Source: an uncultured Bacteroidota bacterium (GTDB lineage: Bacteria; Bacteroidota; Bacteroidia; NS11-12g; UBA9320). From it: 64,000 bases of DNA. The position numbers and the translations under genes are program-made. This document shows positions 3,961 to 12,432 of this stretch, piece after piece; within the stretch, counting starts at the first letter, position 1; the number at the start of each line of letters is the position of its first letter. The stretch is taken from NCBI GenBank assembly GCA_937124965.1, contig CAKZLB010000036.1, forward strand, positions 248,001 through 312,000, given 5' to 3'. The notes beneath the pieces are model-generated. The model was not told where the DNA came from. It saw only the letters and a program-made list of their open reading frames with translations, and searched no databases.

Positions 3961-4992
3961 ATGAAACCAAGAACTCAATTTCTTTTTGTAGGTAATTTTT
4001 TGCAAAAGCATCGAGGCTCTATCGGGATTGCACAAAAAATGACCACCTGGCTACGCGAAGAAGATGGAATCACTATTCCGGTTGTTTCAGAGCATGAAAA
4101 TATCTATTCAAGGTTTATTGATATAGTTAAAACTATACTAGTTCTAAGGCCTAAAAGAATATTTGTAGACACCTACAGTGGCAAAGCATTCATAATCACT
4201 TTAGCCACTTTTTGTACATCTTGGTTCACACGATCACGAGTTAATTGTGTCCTTCGAGGAGGTAAACTTTTTGAATTTTTTCAAGAATATCCACGCATCG
4301 TGAAATTCGTTTTGAAAAAATGTACGTGTTATTCTCCTTCATTGTTTTTAATTGATAAGTTTAAGAATCAGAATTTCAATATTAAGTACCTTCCTAATCC
4401 AGTAAGATTAGAAAAATTCGAGTTTGTAAGAGAGAATGTTAATCTATTTTCTTTACTTTGGGTAAGAGGTTTTGATCCCATATATAATCCAGAAGTACCA
4501 ATTAAGCTTCTAGCTTCTTTAAAAACTAAATATCCAAGCATCACATTGACGATGATAGGTCCTGATCGTGGATTGCTAAATAATTGTAAAAAGTTAGCAA
4601 CAGAGTTGGGTGTAATCGATGACGTATCTTTTGTTGGCAGTGTCCCAAATGAAAAACTCTACACCTACTATCAGACTCATGGTATTTACTTAAACACCAC
4701 GTCCTATGAGAGTTTTGGTCAAGCAGTTATCGAAGCTGCGTCATGTGGAATTCCAATCATATCAAACAACGTAGGAGAAATCCCATATTTATGGGAAGAT
4801 AAGGTTAATATTTTAACTGTTGAAGGCAATGATTTAGACAGTTATGTTACTAGCGTAGAGTTTTTATTAGAGAATAATGATAAGGCAAAACGTATGGCCT
4901 TGAGTGCAAGAACTGTTGCAGAACAATTTCAATGGGGTACGATAAAAAGCGACTGGATGAAGATCATATCGAACTCGAATGATCATAAATAA
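3961..4992 (+). CDS. Glycosyltransferase family 4
   Basis: 343-residue GT4-like enzyme, short for the family. An N-terminal Rossmann half contains VLRGGKLFEFF, and the C-terminal half carries the EX7E motif in YESFGQAVIEAA (about residues 253-264) followed by CGIPII and GEIPYL. The ATG directly follows the TAA of the acyltransferase gene, which indicates tight coupling. Probable role: adding one sugar to the lipid-linked repeat unit. It is followed by a 116-base gap before the formyltransferase fusion gene. Confidence 0.85.
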   Translation: MKPRTQFLFVGNFLQKHRGSIGIAQKMTTWLREEDGITIPVVSEHENIYSRFIDIVKTILVLRPKRIFVDTYSGKAFIITLATFCTSWFTRSRVNCVLRGGKLFEFFQEYPRIVKFVLKKCTCYSPSLFLIDKFKNQNFNIKYLPNPVRLEKFEFVRENVNLFSLLWVRGFDPIYNPEVPIKLLASLKTKYPSITLTMIGPDRGLLNNCKKLATELGVIDDVSFVGSVPNEKLYTYYQTHGIYLNTTSYESFGQAVIEAASCGIPIISNNVGEIPYLWEDKVNILTVEGNDLDSYVTSVEFLLENNDKAKRMALSARTVAEQFQWGTIKSDWMKIISNSNDHK

Positions 4993-5108: not shown

Positions 5109-6701
5109 ATGACAATTAGCGAAAACAAGATAAAAATTGGTTTTTTAATTAGCAACAAAAATCATATCAGTTTTTTTTATTCTAAACTAATTGAAAAAAT
5201 ACTCGTGGATGATAGATATATCGTTGAATTTGTGTTTTTAGAGAGTGATCAAGTAGCGAAAAAGCCTACTAATAGCTCAATAATTTTGTCATTAATTGTT
5301 AAACTAGAAAAAAAACTATTTAAAGTAAAAAACTACCCGAATTCATACGTATCTATTGCAAACTTGCTTAAAGATAAGGCAGTTACTAGTGTAAGAAACA
5401 TATCAAAATCGCCTTATGTTAGATTGAATGATGAAGATTTAAACACCTTACGAAGTAAAAACTTCGACCTTCTTTATAGAATAGGTTGGGGAATAATTAA
5501 AGGTGATGTTTTAAATATTGCCAAACATGGGATATGGTCATTACATCATGGAGACTATCAACACTTCAGAGGTAAACCTGCTGTTTTCTGGGAAGTTTAT
5601 AAAGGTTTATCTCATGCAGGATGTGTTCTACAGAAACTTACAAATAAATTAGACGACGGACAGGTAATCGATAGTTTAAACACAAGTATTAATGTATTCT
5701 CATACTCAACAAGCTTAAGTATTTTATACTACAAGAGTTTGGAAATGCTTCTTGACAATTTAGAAAAACTTCACACGAATAAGAAGCTAGACTTTAAGCC
5801 TAAAGGTTTGAAAGTTTACACAAATGAATTGTTTAAGACCCCAAACTTGCGTATTCAATTTGTATTTTTTCTCAAATTACTATCAAGAAATTTCTTAAGG
5901 AAAATAGAACTAAAAAACTATAGCTGGCATATTGCTATCGCCAAAAAGGAAAAAAGTAAAGAAATAAAAAACTACAAAATTGTTCCTAATAGAAAAGGAC
6001 ATTTTTCTGCAGATCCATTTATCATCAATCACCAAGGGGAAGAATATGTATTCTTTGAAGAGGCTCCAATTAAAAGTTCCTTGGGACATATTTCGTACAT
6101 TAAGTGCAGTGACTTTTCGGATAGAGGTATTGCTTTAAAGGAATCCTTTCATTTGTCATTTCCAAACGTGTTTTATCATGAAAATGAAATGTATATGCTG
6201 CCTGAAACAAGAAAGTCAAACTCAATTAGGCTTTACAAATGTTTAAGTTTTCCAGACAAATGGGAACTCGCGTCAGTGTTGATTGATAATATATCGGCTT
6301 GCGACTCAGAAATATTTAAGTATGAAAACAAATACTACTTATTTTCCAATGTGAGTAAAAGTGATTATTTGTCCAATGCAGATAATCTTTGCATATTCAT
6401 TTCAGAAAACCTATTCGGTCCTTATGAACCACATGAGATGAATCCGTTATCTAGAGACTGCAGAAACTCTAGAATGGCTGGTAAAATTGTACAAGAAGGC
6501 GATGATATTTATCGACTAGCTCAAAGTGGTGAGTATGGATATGGATCAGCCATTGTCATTAATAAATTAGAACATTTGAGCAGCAGTGCCTATAAGGAAA
6601 CAAAAACTCAGACTATCTATAATACGATGCTTAAAGAAAAAGGTATTCACACCTTTAATTTTGGAGAAAAATTTGCGGTTTTAGACGCATTAATAAAGTG
6701 A
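5109..6701 (+). CDS. Formyltransferase-like domain fused to a GINT1_N-like (GH43-like propeller) domain
   Basis: 530-residue two-domain protein. Residues about 115-200 resemble the formyl-tetrahydrofolate-dependent formyltransferase core: WSLHHGDY near residue 142, then FRGKPAVFWEV, then LDDGQVID near residue 181. The classical catalytic triad is Asn-His-Asp; here the His and Asp are present but the Asn position reads Ser (W-S-L-H). From about residue 285 a second domain has FSADPFI, EYVFFEE and DSEIFKYENKYYLF blade motifs, resembling the N-terminal domain named after plant glucosamine inositolphosphorylceramide transferase 1. The context suggests modification of an amino sugar in the surface glycan. 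Activity is inferred, not demonstrated. Confidence 0.65.
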   Translation: MTISENKIKIGFLISNKNHISFFYSKLIEKILVDDRYIVEFVFLESDQVAKKPTNSSIILSLIVKLEKKLFKVKNYPNSYVSIANLLKDKAVTSVRNISKSPYVRLNDEDLNTLRSKNFDLLYRIGWGIIKGDVLNIAKHGIWSLHHGDYQHFRGKPAVFWEVYKGLSHAGCVLQKLTNKLDDGQVIDSLNTSINVFSYSTSLSILYYKSLEMLLDNLEKLHTNKKLDFKPKGLKVYTNELFKTPNLRIQFVFFLKLLSRNFLRKIELKNYSWHIAIAKKEKSKEIKNYKIVPNRKGHFSADPFIINHQGEEYVFFEEAPIKSSLGHISYIKCSDFSDRGIALKESFHLSFPNVFYHENEMYMLPETRKSNSIRLYKCLSFPDKWELASVLIDNISACDSEIFKYENKYYLFSNVSKSDYLSNADNLCIFISENLFGPYEPHEMNPLSRDCRNSRMAGKIVQEGDDIYRLAQSGEYGYGSAIVINKLEHLSSSAYKETKTQTIYNTMLKEKGIHTFNFGEKFAVLDALIK

Positions 6702-6841: not shown

Positions 6842-8230
6842 ATGAGTAAAATAGTAGATAAAGTCTATTCCTTCTTACCGGTCTGGCTGCAAAATGTTGG
6901 TATATCTGCGTATGGTTATTATTGGTATAAAAGACGTTTTGGTGGAGTATTTAAAGCGGAATTGAAAGCCTATAATGAACGTGAATTTTACACAAAGCAT
7001 CAATGGGACTCATATCAAACAGAAGAATTACGAAAACTTTTGGTTCATGCTTTTGACCACGTGCCATTTTATACAGAGAAATATACTAATCATGGTATAA
7101 CACGAGAGTTCTTGCAAAACATTCAATTGGCAGAAATCAATAAGTTACCATTTCTGGAAAAAGAAGAATTAAGAAAATACGGAACAACAACTCTTTTGAG
7201 TAAGATAAAAGATTCGTCTGGTGAATTTTATGGTAGTAGTGGAACGACCGGAACACCTACACAAATCTATTTTTCAAAACCTTTTCATCAAAAATGGAGT
7301 GCCGCCTTTGAAAGCCGTATTCGTAAATGGGCTGGTATCGATTACAAAACTCCAAGAGGGATGATCGGTGGCCGACGTGTACTACCAGGATCATCTAACA
7401 AAAAGCCATTTTATAGGTACAATTGGTTTGAAAAACAGGTTTATTTTTCTGCTTACCACATTTCGCCTTCAACAGTAGAAAACTACTTACATGGTATAAA
7501 AAAATATAAACTAGAGTATATGAATGGTTACGCGGTTAGCAACTATTCATTAGCTAAATTTCTGGTTGATGGAAAATATGATGTTCCAAAACTAAAAGCC
7601 GTAATAACTTCTAGTGAAAAATTAAATCCAGAAATGCGAGAAGTTTTTCAACAAGCATATGGTTGTAAGACTTTTGATTCATACAGCGGTGTGGAAGCAT
7701 GTGGGTTGATTTCTGAAACAGAAAAAGGAGAACTGCTAGTTAGCCCTGATGTTGGTATTATGGAGTTTCTTGATAGTAACGGAAACGAAGTAAAGCCTGG
7801 CGAGGCAGGTGAAATAATCTCTACAGGACTAATTAATTACGATCAGCCGTTAATTCGATATCGTATTGGTGACACAGCTATTTTAAGCAAAACGCAAGAG
7901 ACCGCTACTGGACACGCTATGATTAAAATAGATGAAATTCAAGGACGAATTGAAGATAAAGTAGTTGCCAAAGATGGAAGGGAAATGGTTCGTTTTCATG
8001 GACTTTACATCAATATACCGCATTTGATCACGGCACAGATTATCCAAAACGACTACGACGTTTTCACATTCAACCTAGTTGTAGAAGAAGACTTCGATCC
8101 AGCATATGAAGAGATAATCATAAAACGTTTGGAGTCACAAGTAGGTAAAGTAAAAACAACGTTTAACCATGTTTCCGAAATACCCAAAAGCGCAAATGGA
8201 AAGTTTCGCGCTGTAATTTCAGAGTTATAA
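6842..8230 (+). CDS. CapK/PaaK-like adenylate-forming enzyme
   Basis: 462-residue member of the ANL adenylate-forming superfamily, closest in look to phenylacetate-CoA ligase and the CapK proteins of capsule clusters. Motifs: SSGTTGTPT phosphate-binding loop near residue 131, YSGVEACG near 277, YRIGDTA near 339, and a C-terminal KSANGKFR segment near residue 452 that positions the catalytic Lys. No acyl-carrier protein gene lies nearby. In polysaccharide clusters such proteins are suspected of activating an acid for attachment to a sugar, but the substrate is unknown. It lies 140 bases after the formyltransferase fusion and 26 bases before wecB. Confidence 0.75.
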   Translation: MSKIVDKVYSFLPVWLQNVGISAYGYYWYKRRFGGVFKAELKAYNEREFYTKHQWDSYQTEELRKLLVHAFDHVPFYTEKYTNHGITREFLQNIQLAEINKLPFLEKEELRKYGTTTLLSKIKDSSGEFYGSSGTTGTPTQIYFSKPFHQKWSAAFESRIRKWAGIDYKTPRGMIGGRRVLPGSSNKKPFYRYNWFEKQVYFSAYHISPSTVENYLHGIKKYKLEYMNGYAVSNYSLAKFLVDGKYDVPKLKAVITSSEKLNPEMREVFQQAYGCKTFDSYSGVEACGLISETEKGELLVSPDVGIMEFLDSNGNEVKPGEAGEIISTGLINYDQPLIRYRIGDTAILSKTQETATGHAMIKIDEIQGRIEDKVVAKDGREMVRFHGLYINIPHLITAQIIQNDYDVFTFNLVVEEDFDPAYEEIIIKRLESQVGKVKTTFNHVSEIPKSANGKFRAVISEL

Positions 8231-9333: not shown

Positions 9334-10562
9334 AAATATTAATTCTGACACAATACTTCTACCCGGAAACTGGCGCTCCGCAAAACAGACTGTTTTCGCT
9401 CGCTAGTAATTTGAAGAAATACACACAGGATATTGAGGTACTAACGGCAATGCCAAACTATCCTAAAATGGAAATCTTTAAAGGTTATAAAGGTAAATGG
9501 TATTGTAAGGAAGAGATGGAAAATATCACTATCCATCGAGCACCAATTTACGTCTCCAAAAGTAAAAAAATCTTTAGTCGGCTACTTAACTACTTTTCAT
9601 TCGTATTTTCTTCACTTTGGATTGGCTTAAGAAAAGTTAAATCCACAGATGTTATTATATGCGAGTCTCCTCCCCTTTTTCTTGGAATATCTGCCTACAT
9701 ACTATCACGGGTAAAGGGAGCAAAATTAGTATTCAATGTATCCGACTTATGGCCAGAAAGTGCCGAAAAACTAGATTTAATAAGTAACAAAACCGCACTA
9801 AAACTAACCTATGGTCTCGAAAAATGGCTGTATAAAGTTAGCCACCTTGTAACTGGTCAAACGCAAGGTATTGTTAAGAATATCAATGCCCGATTCCCTG
9901 AAATGGATGCCTATTGGTTTAGAAATGGCATTGATTTAAATCAATTTAACACAGATGCTAAACGAGATATTTTTTCTGAAAAATATAGCCTAACAGAAAA
10001 CGATTTCGTTTTACTCTATGCTGGAATCTTAGGTTATGCTCAAGGCTTGGAAATTATTATTCATGCTGCAGACAATTTAAAACGTAAACCTACTATAAAG
10101 TTTGTCATTATTGGCGACGGGCCTGAACATGGTAAACTCGTAAAGCTGCAACAAGATCTAAAACTCACTAACGTGATTTTTACAGGCAATATTGATCGCA
10201 AGGAAATTCCATCTGCAATTGCTTCTTCTAGTGCTTATATCGTTCCACTTAAAAAAAGTGATTTGTTTTTAGGTGCAATTCCTTCCAAATTATTCGAACC
10301 ATTAATCATGAAAGTTCCTATCATTTTGGGAGTAGATGGAGAAGCAAGGGAGTTGTTTATTAATCAAGGTAATGCTGGTTTGTATTATGAACCTGAGAAT
10401 TGCGAGGAATTGATAAAATGCATCAATGACCTCTATGACAATAATGAACTACGACAACGACTTGGTTCAAACGGACACAATTACGTTAAGCAAAAATTCG
10501 ATCGAGATGAGATTTCTAAAGAATTTTGGGATATACTAAACAAAAGATTAACGCAACAATAG
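9330..10562 (+). CDS. WbuB-like glycosyltransferase family 4 (cassette copy 1)
   Basis: 410-residue GT4. The N-terminus MKILILTQYFYPETGAPQNR and the PNYPKMEIFKGY and NVSDLWPESA segments are characteristic of the WbuB-like group that transfers N-acetylated (often L-fucosamine-type) sugars. The C-terminal donor site has LLYAGILGYAQGLE and KSDLFLGAIPSKLFEPL. It overlaps wecB by 4 bases and is followed after one base by a GNAT gene. The GT4+GNAT pair is repeated immediately downstream with a related GT4. The specificity is inferred only from family resemblance. Confidence 0.88.
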   Translation: MKILILTQYFYPETGAPQNRLFSLASNLKKYTQDIEVLTAMPNYPKMEIFKGYKGKWYCKEEMENITIHRAPIYVSKSKKIFSRLLNYFSFVFSSLWIGLRKVKSTDVIICESPPLFLGISAYILSRVKGAKLVFNVSDLWPESAEKLDLISNKTALKLTYGLEKWLYKVSHLVTGQTQGIVKNINARFPEMDAYWFRNGIDLNQFNTDAKRDIFSEKYSLTENDFVLLYAGILGYAQGLEIIIHAADNLKRKPTIKFVIIGDGPEHGKLVKLQQDLKLTNVIFTGNIDRKEIPSAIASSSAYIVPLKKSDLFLGAIPSKLFEPLIMKVPIILGVDGEARELFINQGNAGLYYEPENCEELIKCINDLYDNNELRQRLGSNGHNYVKQKFDRDEISKEFWDILNKRLTQQ

Positions 10563-10563
10563 C

Positions 10564-11202
10564 ATGAAGAGCCACATATCTGAACTAACTGATTTGACGG
10601 GTATTGCTAAAGTACATCGCTCTGCATTTCCAAAATCTCTATCAACGAGCATGGGGCTTAAATATTGTACGAAAATGCTTTCCTGGTTTATTGAAACTGA
10701 AAGTGCGTTTATGCTACATATAGAAGAAAATGGCACCATTATAGGTTATTGTGGAGGTATAGTATCTGATGGAACATTACCAACAGGAGCAGCGAGTGGT
10801 ATGCTCCAACATAGCATGAACGCTGCAATCAAAGCGTTTGTTTTAAATCCAACTTTACTGTTCCACCCTGAACTCAGAAAAAAGTATAAGTTGACACTAA
10901 GGAATATATTTTCAAAATTAGGGTTGAAAAAAAATAAAATCTCTGATAACGTTCGACAGGAGAGAAAAAAAGAACCGGTTACAGGTTTAGTTGTTATTGG
11001 TGTTCATTCAGATCATCGTCAAAAAGGACTTGGACAGTTATTGTTAAAAATGTTTGAAGATCACTCCAGCAGTATCGGAATTAATCATTTACGCTTAACA
11101 GTTTTAACCGATAACACCATCGCCATAAAGGCATACAAAAAATCAGGTTGGACAACTGATTCCGTTGCTGGAACCAGTACAACAATGTCTAAGGTACTTT
11201 AA
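10564..11202 (+). CDS. GNAT-family N-acetyltransferase (cassette copy 1)
   Basis: 212-residue GNAT acetyltransferase. The acetyl-CoA-binding motif is HRQKGLGQLLL near residue 154, followed by LRLTVLTDNTIAIKAYKKSGW, the usual motif B. An insert around residues 75-130 (with LLFHPELRKK) separates the N-terminal strand from the core and is matched by a similar insert in the second GNAT of the cluster. It starts one base after the upstream GT4 stop codon. It probably acetylates an amino group of a nucleotide sugar made by the DegT aminotransferase encoded downstream; that link is inferred. Confidence 0.82.
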   Translation: MKSHISELTDLTGIAKVHRSAFPKSLSTSMGLKYCTKMLSWFIETESAFMLHIEENGTIIGYCGGIVSDGTLPTGAASGMLQHSMNAAIKAFVLNPTLLFHPELRKKYKLTLRNIFSKLGLKKNKISDNVRQERKKEPVTGLVVIGVHSDHRQKGLGQLLLKMFEDHSSSIGINHLRLTVLTDNTIAIKAYKKSGWTTDSVAGTSTTMSKVL

Positions 11203-11220
11203 CAAACTGAAGGTACAAAA

Positions 11221-12432
11221 TTGAAAGTTTTATTAGTTAGTCAATTCTTTTACCCAGAAAGCGGCGCTTCTCAAATTCGACTATTAGAAATGAGTAAGTA
11301 CCTTACAACTGTAGGGCATGACGTTGAAGTAATTACTGCCTTACCTAATTACCCTAAAGGAAAGGTCTATGAAGGATTTAAAAAAAAAATATTTGCAAAT
11401 TCTTATATAGAAAAAATCAAAATAAACCACCTTTTCATTTTTCCTTCTTCAAGCAAAAATATTATAATTCGGTTTTTTGCTAGCTTAAGTTTTTCAGTAA
11501 GCTTAGTATTGTTTAGTGCTTTCAAAAAAGAGAAAAAATATGATATTGTTATATCCGAGACCCCTCCACTAAACATTGCTTACTTAACGTATTTTTTAAA
11601 TCGTTTTTTTTACAAATCATCGTTTATTCTTAATGTATCCGACTCGTGGCCGTTAGCTTTATTCGATTTAAATATTCTTAAAAGTGATTCGTTCATTGGC
11701 AAATTATTAATCAAAATTGAAAAACAACTATATAAATCCAGTGCAGGATGTATCGGTCAGTCTGAAGAAATAATTAATAGGATTAAAGAAGTCAATCCAA
11801 ACTCTAAAATATTAACGTATAGCAACTCTGTAAATTCGAAAGATTTTATTGAGTTCCCAAAAAATTATGAACCTACGAATAAAGATAAACCATACAGATT
11901 GGTCTATGCCGGTTTATTGGGATTAGCCCAAGAAGTATCGAAGTATATCGAAAATATTCCTTTTGAGGAGTTAGGTTATGAACTTCACATTTATGGGGAA
12001 GGTCCTGATGTAGAAAACATTAATAATAAACTAAAATCACATAAAGGAGTTTTTTATCACGGTTACAGTAACTATGAAACAATTGCTTCTAACTTGGGCA
12101 GCTTCGACTTTTCGTTTATCCCTATGATTCAATATGTGAGAGGAACCGTACCTGCTAAAACATATGAATCTATGGCTGCTGGCTTACCAATAATTATGGC
12201 TGCTTCAGGTGAAGCAAGCCGCCTAATAACCACAAATAAAATTGGATGGGTAAGCTCTCCAAGTGACTACGAAAGTTTAATTGAAAACTTAAAACAAATT
12301 AAGAATGTTGATCGTGACGAATTATTAGAAATGTCTCGACGGTGCAGAAAACTAGCAGTAGAAACCTATGATCGTTCGTATCAAAATGAAAAACTTGGAG
12401 CATTTATCTCGAGTTTAAAAAATGACCATTAG
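11221..12432 (+). CDS. WbuB-like glycosyltransferase family 4 (cassette copy 2), TTG start
   Basis: 403-residue GT4, paralogous to the gene at 9330: it shares the N-terminal pattern (MKVLLVSQFFYPESGASQIR), PNYPKGKVYEGF, SETPPLN and NVSDSWPLALF. The start is TTG. The family-conserved N-terminus begins exactly at this codon, no ATG exists upstream in frame, and GAAGGT lies about 8 bases before it. The C-terminal donor site has YAGLLGLAQE and RGTVPAKTYESMAAGLP. It overlaps the following GNAT by 11 bases. It likely transfers a second N-acetylated sugar of the same repeat unit. Confidence 0.87.
   Translation: MKVLLVSQFFYPESGASQIRLLEMSKYLTTVGHDVEVITALPNYPKGKVYEGFKKKIFANSYIEKIKINHLFIFPSSSKNIIIRFFASLSFSVSLVLFSAFKKEKKYDIVISETPPLNIAYLTYFLNRFFYKSSFILNVSDSWPLALFDLNILKSDSFIGKLLIKIEKQLYKSSAGCIGQSEEIINRIKEVNPNSKILTYSNSVNSKDFIEFPKNYEPTNKDKPYRLVYAGLLGLAQEVSKYIENIPFEELGYELHIYGEGPDVENINNKLKSHKGVFYHGYSNYETIASNLGSFDFSFIPMIQYVRGTVPAKTYESMAAGLPIIMAASGEASRLITTNKIGWVSSPSDYESLIENLKQIKNVDRDELLEMSRRCRKLAVETYDRSYQNEKLGAFISSLKNDH

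Follow-up and report, generated by a model that had tools for sequence, protein, structure and literature searches.

The window, a 64,000-nucleotide stretch of one contig from an uncultured Bacteroidota bacterium, carries a large polysaccharide gene cluster, and within it an intact open reading frame on the forward strand encodes a protein of 530 amino acids (Table 1); on the opposite strand, stop codons are abundant in register. Around this gene the cluster includes GT4 glycosyltransferases, a hexapeptide acyltransferase, WecB, DegT, two GNATs, a sugar-phosphate transferase, a Gfo/Idh protein and Wzy_C, a setting that bears out the link to surface polysaccharide genes drawn in the initial annotation. 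By Pfam, AF2 modelling and fold comparison, the protein consists of an N-terminal formyltransferase-fold domain followed by a C-terminal GINT1_N five-bladed propeller, and the AF2 model of the whole chain is predicted with a pLDDT of 90.0 and a pTM of 0.90 (74 aligned sequences). It is the single GINT1_N copy in its own genome. A hydropathy search for a membrane-like segment found none in this protein, where the maximum is 0.87 over 19 amino acids, nor in Ghy, a standalone relative from Acinetobacter baumannii discussed below; both proteins therefore probably work in the cytoplasm. A Pfam scan of the 530 amino acids at E<=1 returned five matches with no GT64 family among them, and plant-type GT64 activity was rejected because the protein has no GT64 domain.

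Table 1. The fusion gene, its neighbours and its conserved sites, in window coordinates
Feature	Position	Strand	Evidence or note
Upstream neighbour, group 1/GT4-type glycosyltransferase	3961..4992	+	context
Fusion gene	5109..6701	+	ORF; 530 aa
N-terminal formyltransferase-fold domain, residues 1-272	5109..5924	+	AF2 pLDDT 88.6; Foldseek 4iqf_A E 6.1e-11; VIA Z 17.9 to 3q0i
Motif S144-L-H146-H147-G-D149	5538..5555	+	profile alignment to ArnA; conservation
Asp182, on ArnA Asp140 (L-D-x-G)	5652..5654	+	profile alignment; 90/90 intact domains
Propeller (GINT1_N), residues 282-530	5952..6698	+	Pfam 138.4 bits; VIA Z 21.5 to 9gph_B
Asp302, putative first-blade pocket carboxylate	6012..6014	+	D in 83/85 fused, 9/9 N-degenerate, 37/37 standalone
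Glu366 (P-E motif), second blade	6204..6206	+	E in 83/85 fused, 9/9 N-degenerate, 37/37 standalone
Asp399, third blade	6303..6305	+	D in 82/85 fused, 9/9 N-degenerate, 37/37 standalone
Arg455, fourth blade	6471..6473	+	R in 83/85 fused, 9/9 N-degenerate, 37/37 standalone
His514, fifth blade	6648..6650	+	H in 82/85 fused, 9/9 N-degenerate, 37/37 standalone
Downstream neighbour, PaaK-like AMP-forming ligase relative, next gene after the fusion, still within the polysaccharide cluster	6842..8230	+	

The fusion to a GINT1_N domain, as originally proposed, is clear: PF24793 matches residues 297-517 with E=3.4e-40, at 138.4 bits against a cut-off of 27. In the AF2 model, residues 283-529 superimpose on the oligomannan phosphorylase 9gph_B with a VIA Z of 21.5 and an rmsd of 2.8 over 231 aligned residues, and the mannoside synthase 9erg_B scores 20.5. 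The initial annotation had suggested a sugar-binding or sugar-processing propeller, and the fold of a five-bladed sugar-enzyme propeller agrees with this. GH130, GH62, GH43, GH159 and GH117 structures all lie within about 3 Z of the best match, and because GH62, GH159 and GH43 follow closely behind the GH130-type chains, the modelled domain can be assigned at the level of the clan only. At the sequence level, matches to GH43, GH68 and GH32 are weak, a Pfam search of the protein at E<=1 gave no match to GH130, and placing its residues by sequence on solved GH43, GH32 and GH68 structures yielded short blade matches only. GT108 (6Q50) is missing from the VIA list, an absence that is uninformative. 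A literature search for PF24793 or GINT1_N found no paper.

Across three classes of protein (85 fused, 9 with a degenerate or unrecognised N-terminal part and 37 standalone), D302, E317, P365-E366, D399, R455, G458, Q472, H514 and D526 of the propeller are essentially invariant; D302 is placed in the pocket by strand order. Blades 1-3 carry one conserved carboxylate each, and GH43-type enzymes likewise have one carboxylate in each of blades 1-3.

The N-terminal domain is far less obvious from its sequence. Formyl_trans_N (PF00551) matches residues 111-194 at 19.5 bits, below the Pfam cut-off of 26.1, which one relative (L063) exceeds with 37.2 bits; the NCBIfam models for ArnA, for a formyltransferase and for Fmt match at 5.7e-8 to 1.7e-6, all far under their own cut-offs. 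The AF2 model of the domain, by comparison with Fmt (3q0i), gives a VIA Z of 17.9 with an rmsd of 2.7 over 190 aligned residues, the best formyltransferase in Foldseek has an E value of 6e-11 at a probability of 1.00, and the nearest folds are Fmt, ArnA and WbkC. Judged by the predicted structure, the weak sequence signal reflects real homology, and the domain appears to have descended from N10-formyl-tetrahydrofolate formyltransferases. The formyltransferase-like core recognised at the outset is thus supported by its modelled fold.

In N10-formyl-tetrahydrofolate formyltransferases such as ArnA, the Asn and His of an N-x-H motif and a later Asp are the catalytic residues, and an SLLP loop is the folate-loop signature; a literature search linking SLLPK to formyltetrahydrofolate gave no match. 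The window protein reads G-I-W-S-L-H-H-G-D at this site. A profile alignment to E. coli ArnA places Ser144 on Asn102, His146 on His104 and Asp182 on Asp140, consistent with the earlier observation that W-S-L-H-H-G-D retains the His and the later Asp and has lost the Asn. A further change, missing from the initial annotation, is that the SLLP loop has also gone: HHGDYQHFRG stands at the position of HGSLLPKYRG in ArnA, with G-D-Y-Q after the His. In the family as a whole, the same alignment puts a His at G105, an Asp at L107 and R-G at R112-G113.

Conservation of S-L-H-H-G-D among fused homologues, suggested as a check, was found in the form S-x-H-H-x-D. S144, H146, H147, D149, R154, G155, D182 and G184 are each kept in 90/90 intact domains (the window protein, 84 other fused proteins and 5 without a visible propeller), and a recount with the pattern S.HH.D....RG again gave 90/90, a count that is partly circular in that 80 of the 90 rows came from a scan using WS[FY]HH[GAD]D as one of three patterns, and that is drawn from rows scoring at least 80 bits against the core profile, a limit under which L066, L080, L081, L065 and others fall. 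Two of the 80 scan rows, L093 and L131, depart from WS[FY]HH[GAD]D yet retain S-x-H-H-x-D. The motif is also conserved in all 10 domains gathered earlier by whole-protein or propeller searches, independently of the motif. Since these 10 agree with the scan rows, the replacement of Asn is an old, fixed trait of the family; local decay of one gene was rejected, the Ser substitution being family-wide. Replacement of this Asn is not confined to the S-x-H-H-x-D family. Among 24 ordinary formyltransferase-like open reading frames met alongside, 16 have N-x-H by a simple pattern, two (L041 and L048) have Gly in place of Asn with the LLP loop retained, and the remaining 6 rows are off target, unclear or empty.

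A search of genome contigs with the single window protein returned no relatives; a search with the N-domain alignment found at least 541 stretches encoding them, 80 of which were kept for analysis. Going by record titles, the N-domain relatives listed come mostly from uncultured Bacteroidota, and also from Omnitrophota, Geobacteraceae, Planctomycetota, Acidobacteria and Actinomycetota; relatives of the fusion also occur on Halorussus plasmids. The viral contigs searched held no relatives, and a phage search gave one unverified 9.6-kb record with a match to the propeller only. In 77 of the 80 kept loci the N domain is fused to the propeller, and the other 3 run off the end of the contig. One fused homologue (L072:5591-7242) is split over two frames, by a frameshift in the genome or a sequencing error. 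In Haladaptatus (L082), the propeller (9725-10810) and the formyltransferase-fold domain (10827-11684) are encoded by two separate, adjacent genes whose order is the reverse of that in the fusion, an arrangement that speaks for joint action of the two parts.

Within the phylum, GINT1_N itself was detected in 65 of 395 genomes sampled, mostly as short standalone proteins in one family; these are about 320-350 amino acids long and occur in most of the positive genomes of that Bacteroidota family (f19). Other proteins have a degenerate or unrecognised N-terminal part. In L080, L081 and L066 it matches the formyltransferase domain with hhalign probabilities of 87-95, the motif being lost or changed (lost in the rhizobial copies L080 and L081), and for L062, L035, L083, L085, L067 and L065 a formyltransferase derivation is unsupported, at hhalign probabilities of 0.2-7. 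Because the propeller pocket stays constant while the N domain is intact, decayed or missing, the central enzymatic part appears to be the propeller, with the N domain as a partner that can be dispensed with but is strictly conserved when present. The finding is more general than first described: the protein belongs to a large, widespread family, which probably helps to build cell-surface sugars.

The surroundings of the gene vary among relatives. A GT4 gene lies immediately upstream of the fusion in 60 of 74 relatives examined, and a MOP-flippase-like gene immediately downstream in 50 of 72; of the 67 loci in which both neighbours were examined, only 36 have the two together, all these counts resting on GT4 and flippase profiles built from the same neighbours that were then scored. 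The neighbour scan covered 113 of 135 neighbours, leaving out 10 longer than 450 amino acids and 12 on the opposite strand; 121 of the 135 lie on the same strand as the fusion, 110 of them within 50 bases. Recurrent genes further out are of a housekeeping kind (GyrB/ParE-like, NadR-kinase-like, YjeF, PnuC), and in many Bacteroidota relatives the GT4-fusion-flippase setting is away from sugar-biosynthesis clusters, other relatives of the fusion lying within polysaccharide clusters. Compact trios of this kind amid housekeeping genes can be seen among L087-L166 (for example, L129:6788-10957). The arrangement suggests a small dedicated surface-glycan pathway. The window gene lies outside this cassette, with generic GT4 scores only and no flippase match.

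On the same contig before the window (L167) lie genes for NeuB, NeuC, a formyltransferase, a deacetylase, a PseF-like cytidylyltransferase and a flippase, which together look like a pathway to an N-formylated nonulosonate. The formyltransferase (L167:4200-5165), which lies some 12.8 kb ahead of the window between the NeuB/NeuC and deacetylase/PseF-like genes, is canonical, with FNIHGTPLP...PDAG providing both N-x-H and D, and is therefore a more ordinary candidate for the maker of any formyl group in the glycan. DegT, taken as a proxy for aminotransferases and counted by blastp with one query, was found near fusion relatives in 0 of 35 loci with full flanks and in 2 of 80 overall.

A likely link to a phenotype comes from the standalone form. 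An A. baumannii protein (L084:9845-10735) is recognised as GINT1_N at 117.6 bits, and its gene lies between ilvE-like and aspS genes and is transcribed opposite to its neighbours. From this position and orientation we infer that it is orf1/ghy of the lipooligosaccharide (LOS) outer-core locus, so that a gene of the group A outer-core loci gains a family. According to the available portions of the literature, orf1/ghy occurs in all group A outer-core loci and its function is given as unknown (PMC10327509; listed likewise in PMC11494974), no role for it could be predicted from the structure (PMC3628348), and the best outside BLASTp match of Orf1/Ghy was a 'putative formyl transferase' of Ca. Nitrosoarchaeum koreensis (PMC4172580). 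Insertion of ISAba1 in ghy gave a deeply truncated LOS, slightly smaller than that of a gtrOC2 insertion mutant, and the authors noted in the same excerpt that the promoter opposes the preceding genes and that the effect may be polar (PMC4110982). As far as that excerpt goes, such shortening fits an assembly step like glycosyl transfer better than trimming.

We propose that the fusion protein works in the cytoplasm as an enzyme in the assembly of surface glycans, with a propeller that is most likely a glycosyltransferase and a formyltransferase-fold domain that is a remodelled partner, a reading to which we give a probability of roughly 0.45. The propeller would be the constant working part, most likely a GH130/GT108-like glycosyltransferase or transglycosylase, and would add or process a sugar on a growing lipid-linked glycan. 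The N domain, its site consistently remodelled (Asn to Ser, the SLLP loop replaced, a second His and a new Asp), would be expected still to be catalytic, or at least to bind a ligand, with an altered donor; rather than serving as an ordinary folate-dependent formyltransferase, it would share its sugar or nucleotide-sugar substrate with the propeller. This reading is favoured by the modelled folds, by the conserved S-x-H-H-x-D motif, by a propeller pocket that is near-invariant whatever the N-terminus, by the GT108 precedent, by the GT4/flippase context, by the ghy phenotype as excerpted and by the lack of a membrane segment. Against it, the fold neighbours of the propeller are mostly hydrolases and phosphorylases, making a glycosidase possible, and the ghy insertion, on the excerpted account, may be polar. 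More doubtful is a wider proposal, that GINT1_N is an unrecognised propeller-glycosyltransferase family for surface glycans across bacteria and archaea, that the S-x-H-H-x-D domain represents a novel class among formyltransferase-fold enzymes, differing in donor or in reaction, and that in many Bacteroidota the two, with GT4 and flippase, make up a compact pathway dedicated to a glycan.

The alternative that survives best, and one we consider rather unlikely, is a bifunctional sugar N-formyltransferase, in which the N domain would formylate a nucleotide- or glycan-linked amino sugar with 10-formyl-THF despite the Ser, and the propeller would bind or transfer the product. Ser at the Asn position is by itself insufficient to rule out formyl transfer, the triad His and Asp are kept in 90/90 domains, the fold of the window protein's N domain is closest to Fmt, ArnA and WbkC, and with DegT and two GNATs the window cluster likely produces free amino sugars. 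Yet neither Asn nor the SLLP loop has been kept, the same cluster contains a separate N-x-H formyltransferase, and the DegT proxy is absent from all 35 full-flank relatives. With many relatives also having a degenerate N domain or none, formylation of a glycan-bound amine, as initially suggested, is possible but so far not favoured, and a glycan-assembly enzyme built on the propeller fits best; the core, the fusion, the propeller and the polysaccharide link of the initial annotation have all stood.

Less probable again is that the propeller works in the cytoplasm as a glycosidase or an editing hydrolase while glycans are assembled, in line with the older name ghy, with the N domain providing substrate recognition. 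Largely glycosidase fold neighbours, the weak GH43/GH68/GH32 matches and the GH43-like presence of one conserved carboxylate per blade in blades 1-3 would suit such an enzyme; ghy disruption, in the excerpt available, shortens LOS (PMC4110982), whereas losing a trimming enzyme should have the reverse effect, and there is no membrane- or signal-like hydrophobic stretch. Least likely is a formyltransferase-fold domain that is a dead scaffold, retained to help folding or to bind a partner: 9 relatives have a degenerate or unrecognisable N part, 37 standalone proteins have none, and the rhizobial L080/L081 lack the motif, but in intact domains the polar site residues do not vary among Bacteroidota, Omnitrophota, Planctomycetota, Acidobacteria, Actinomycetota and haloarchaea, and a scaffold would have no need of them.

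Should the propeller prove to be a glycosyltransferase, bacterial glycan assembly would gain a fold class that is seldom seen, and orf1/ghy would acquire a testable function. The Ser that consistently replaces Asn is a natural experiment on the true requirements of the formyltransferase triad, and the trio of GT4, fusion and flippase suggests that uncultured Bacteroidota make a surface glycan not yet described.

Compared with known systems, the window protein shares with the ArnA N domain, WbkC, FdtF/QdtF and Fmt the fold, the His and Asp of the triad and the R-G after the motif, and with the sugar N-formyltransferases among them (ArnA N domain, WbkC, FdtF/QdtF) a setting of glycan genes. It differs from all of these in the change of Asn to Ser, the loss of the SLLP loop, the extra His and Asp, a Pfam score under the cut-off and a propeller as its extra domain. 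QdtF/FdtF bear an extra C-terminal domain as well. For a formyl transferase joined to a beta-propeller, a literature search returned one paper, whose abstract concerns another superfamily. Plant GINT1 gave its name to the Pfam family GINT1_N (PF24793), and its GT64 domain is absent here. Orf1/Ghy of the A. baumannii locus OCL1 is of the same GINT1_N family (34.5% identity over residues 297-528) but stands alone, lacking a formyltransferase-fold domain. The five-bladed propeller is shared with the GH130 phosphorylases, the mannoside synthase Uhgb_MS and GT108; GH130-type chains lead the VIA list at Z 20.5-21.5 with 11-15% identity, and GT108 enzymes, in the portions available of two reports, are five-bladed propeller glycosyltransferase-phosphorylases (PMC8476585, PMC8950772).
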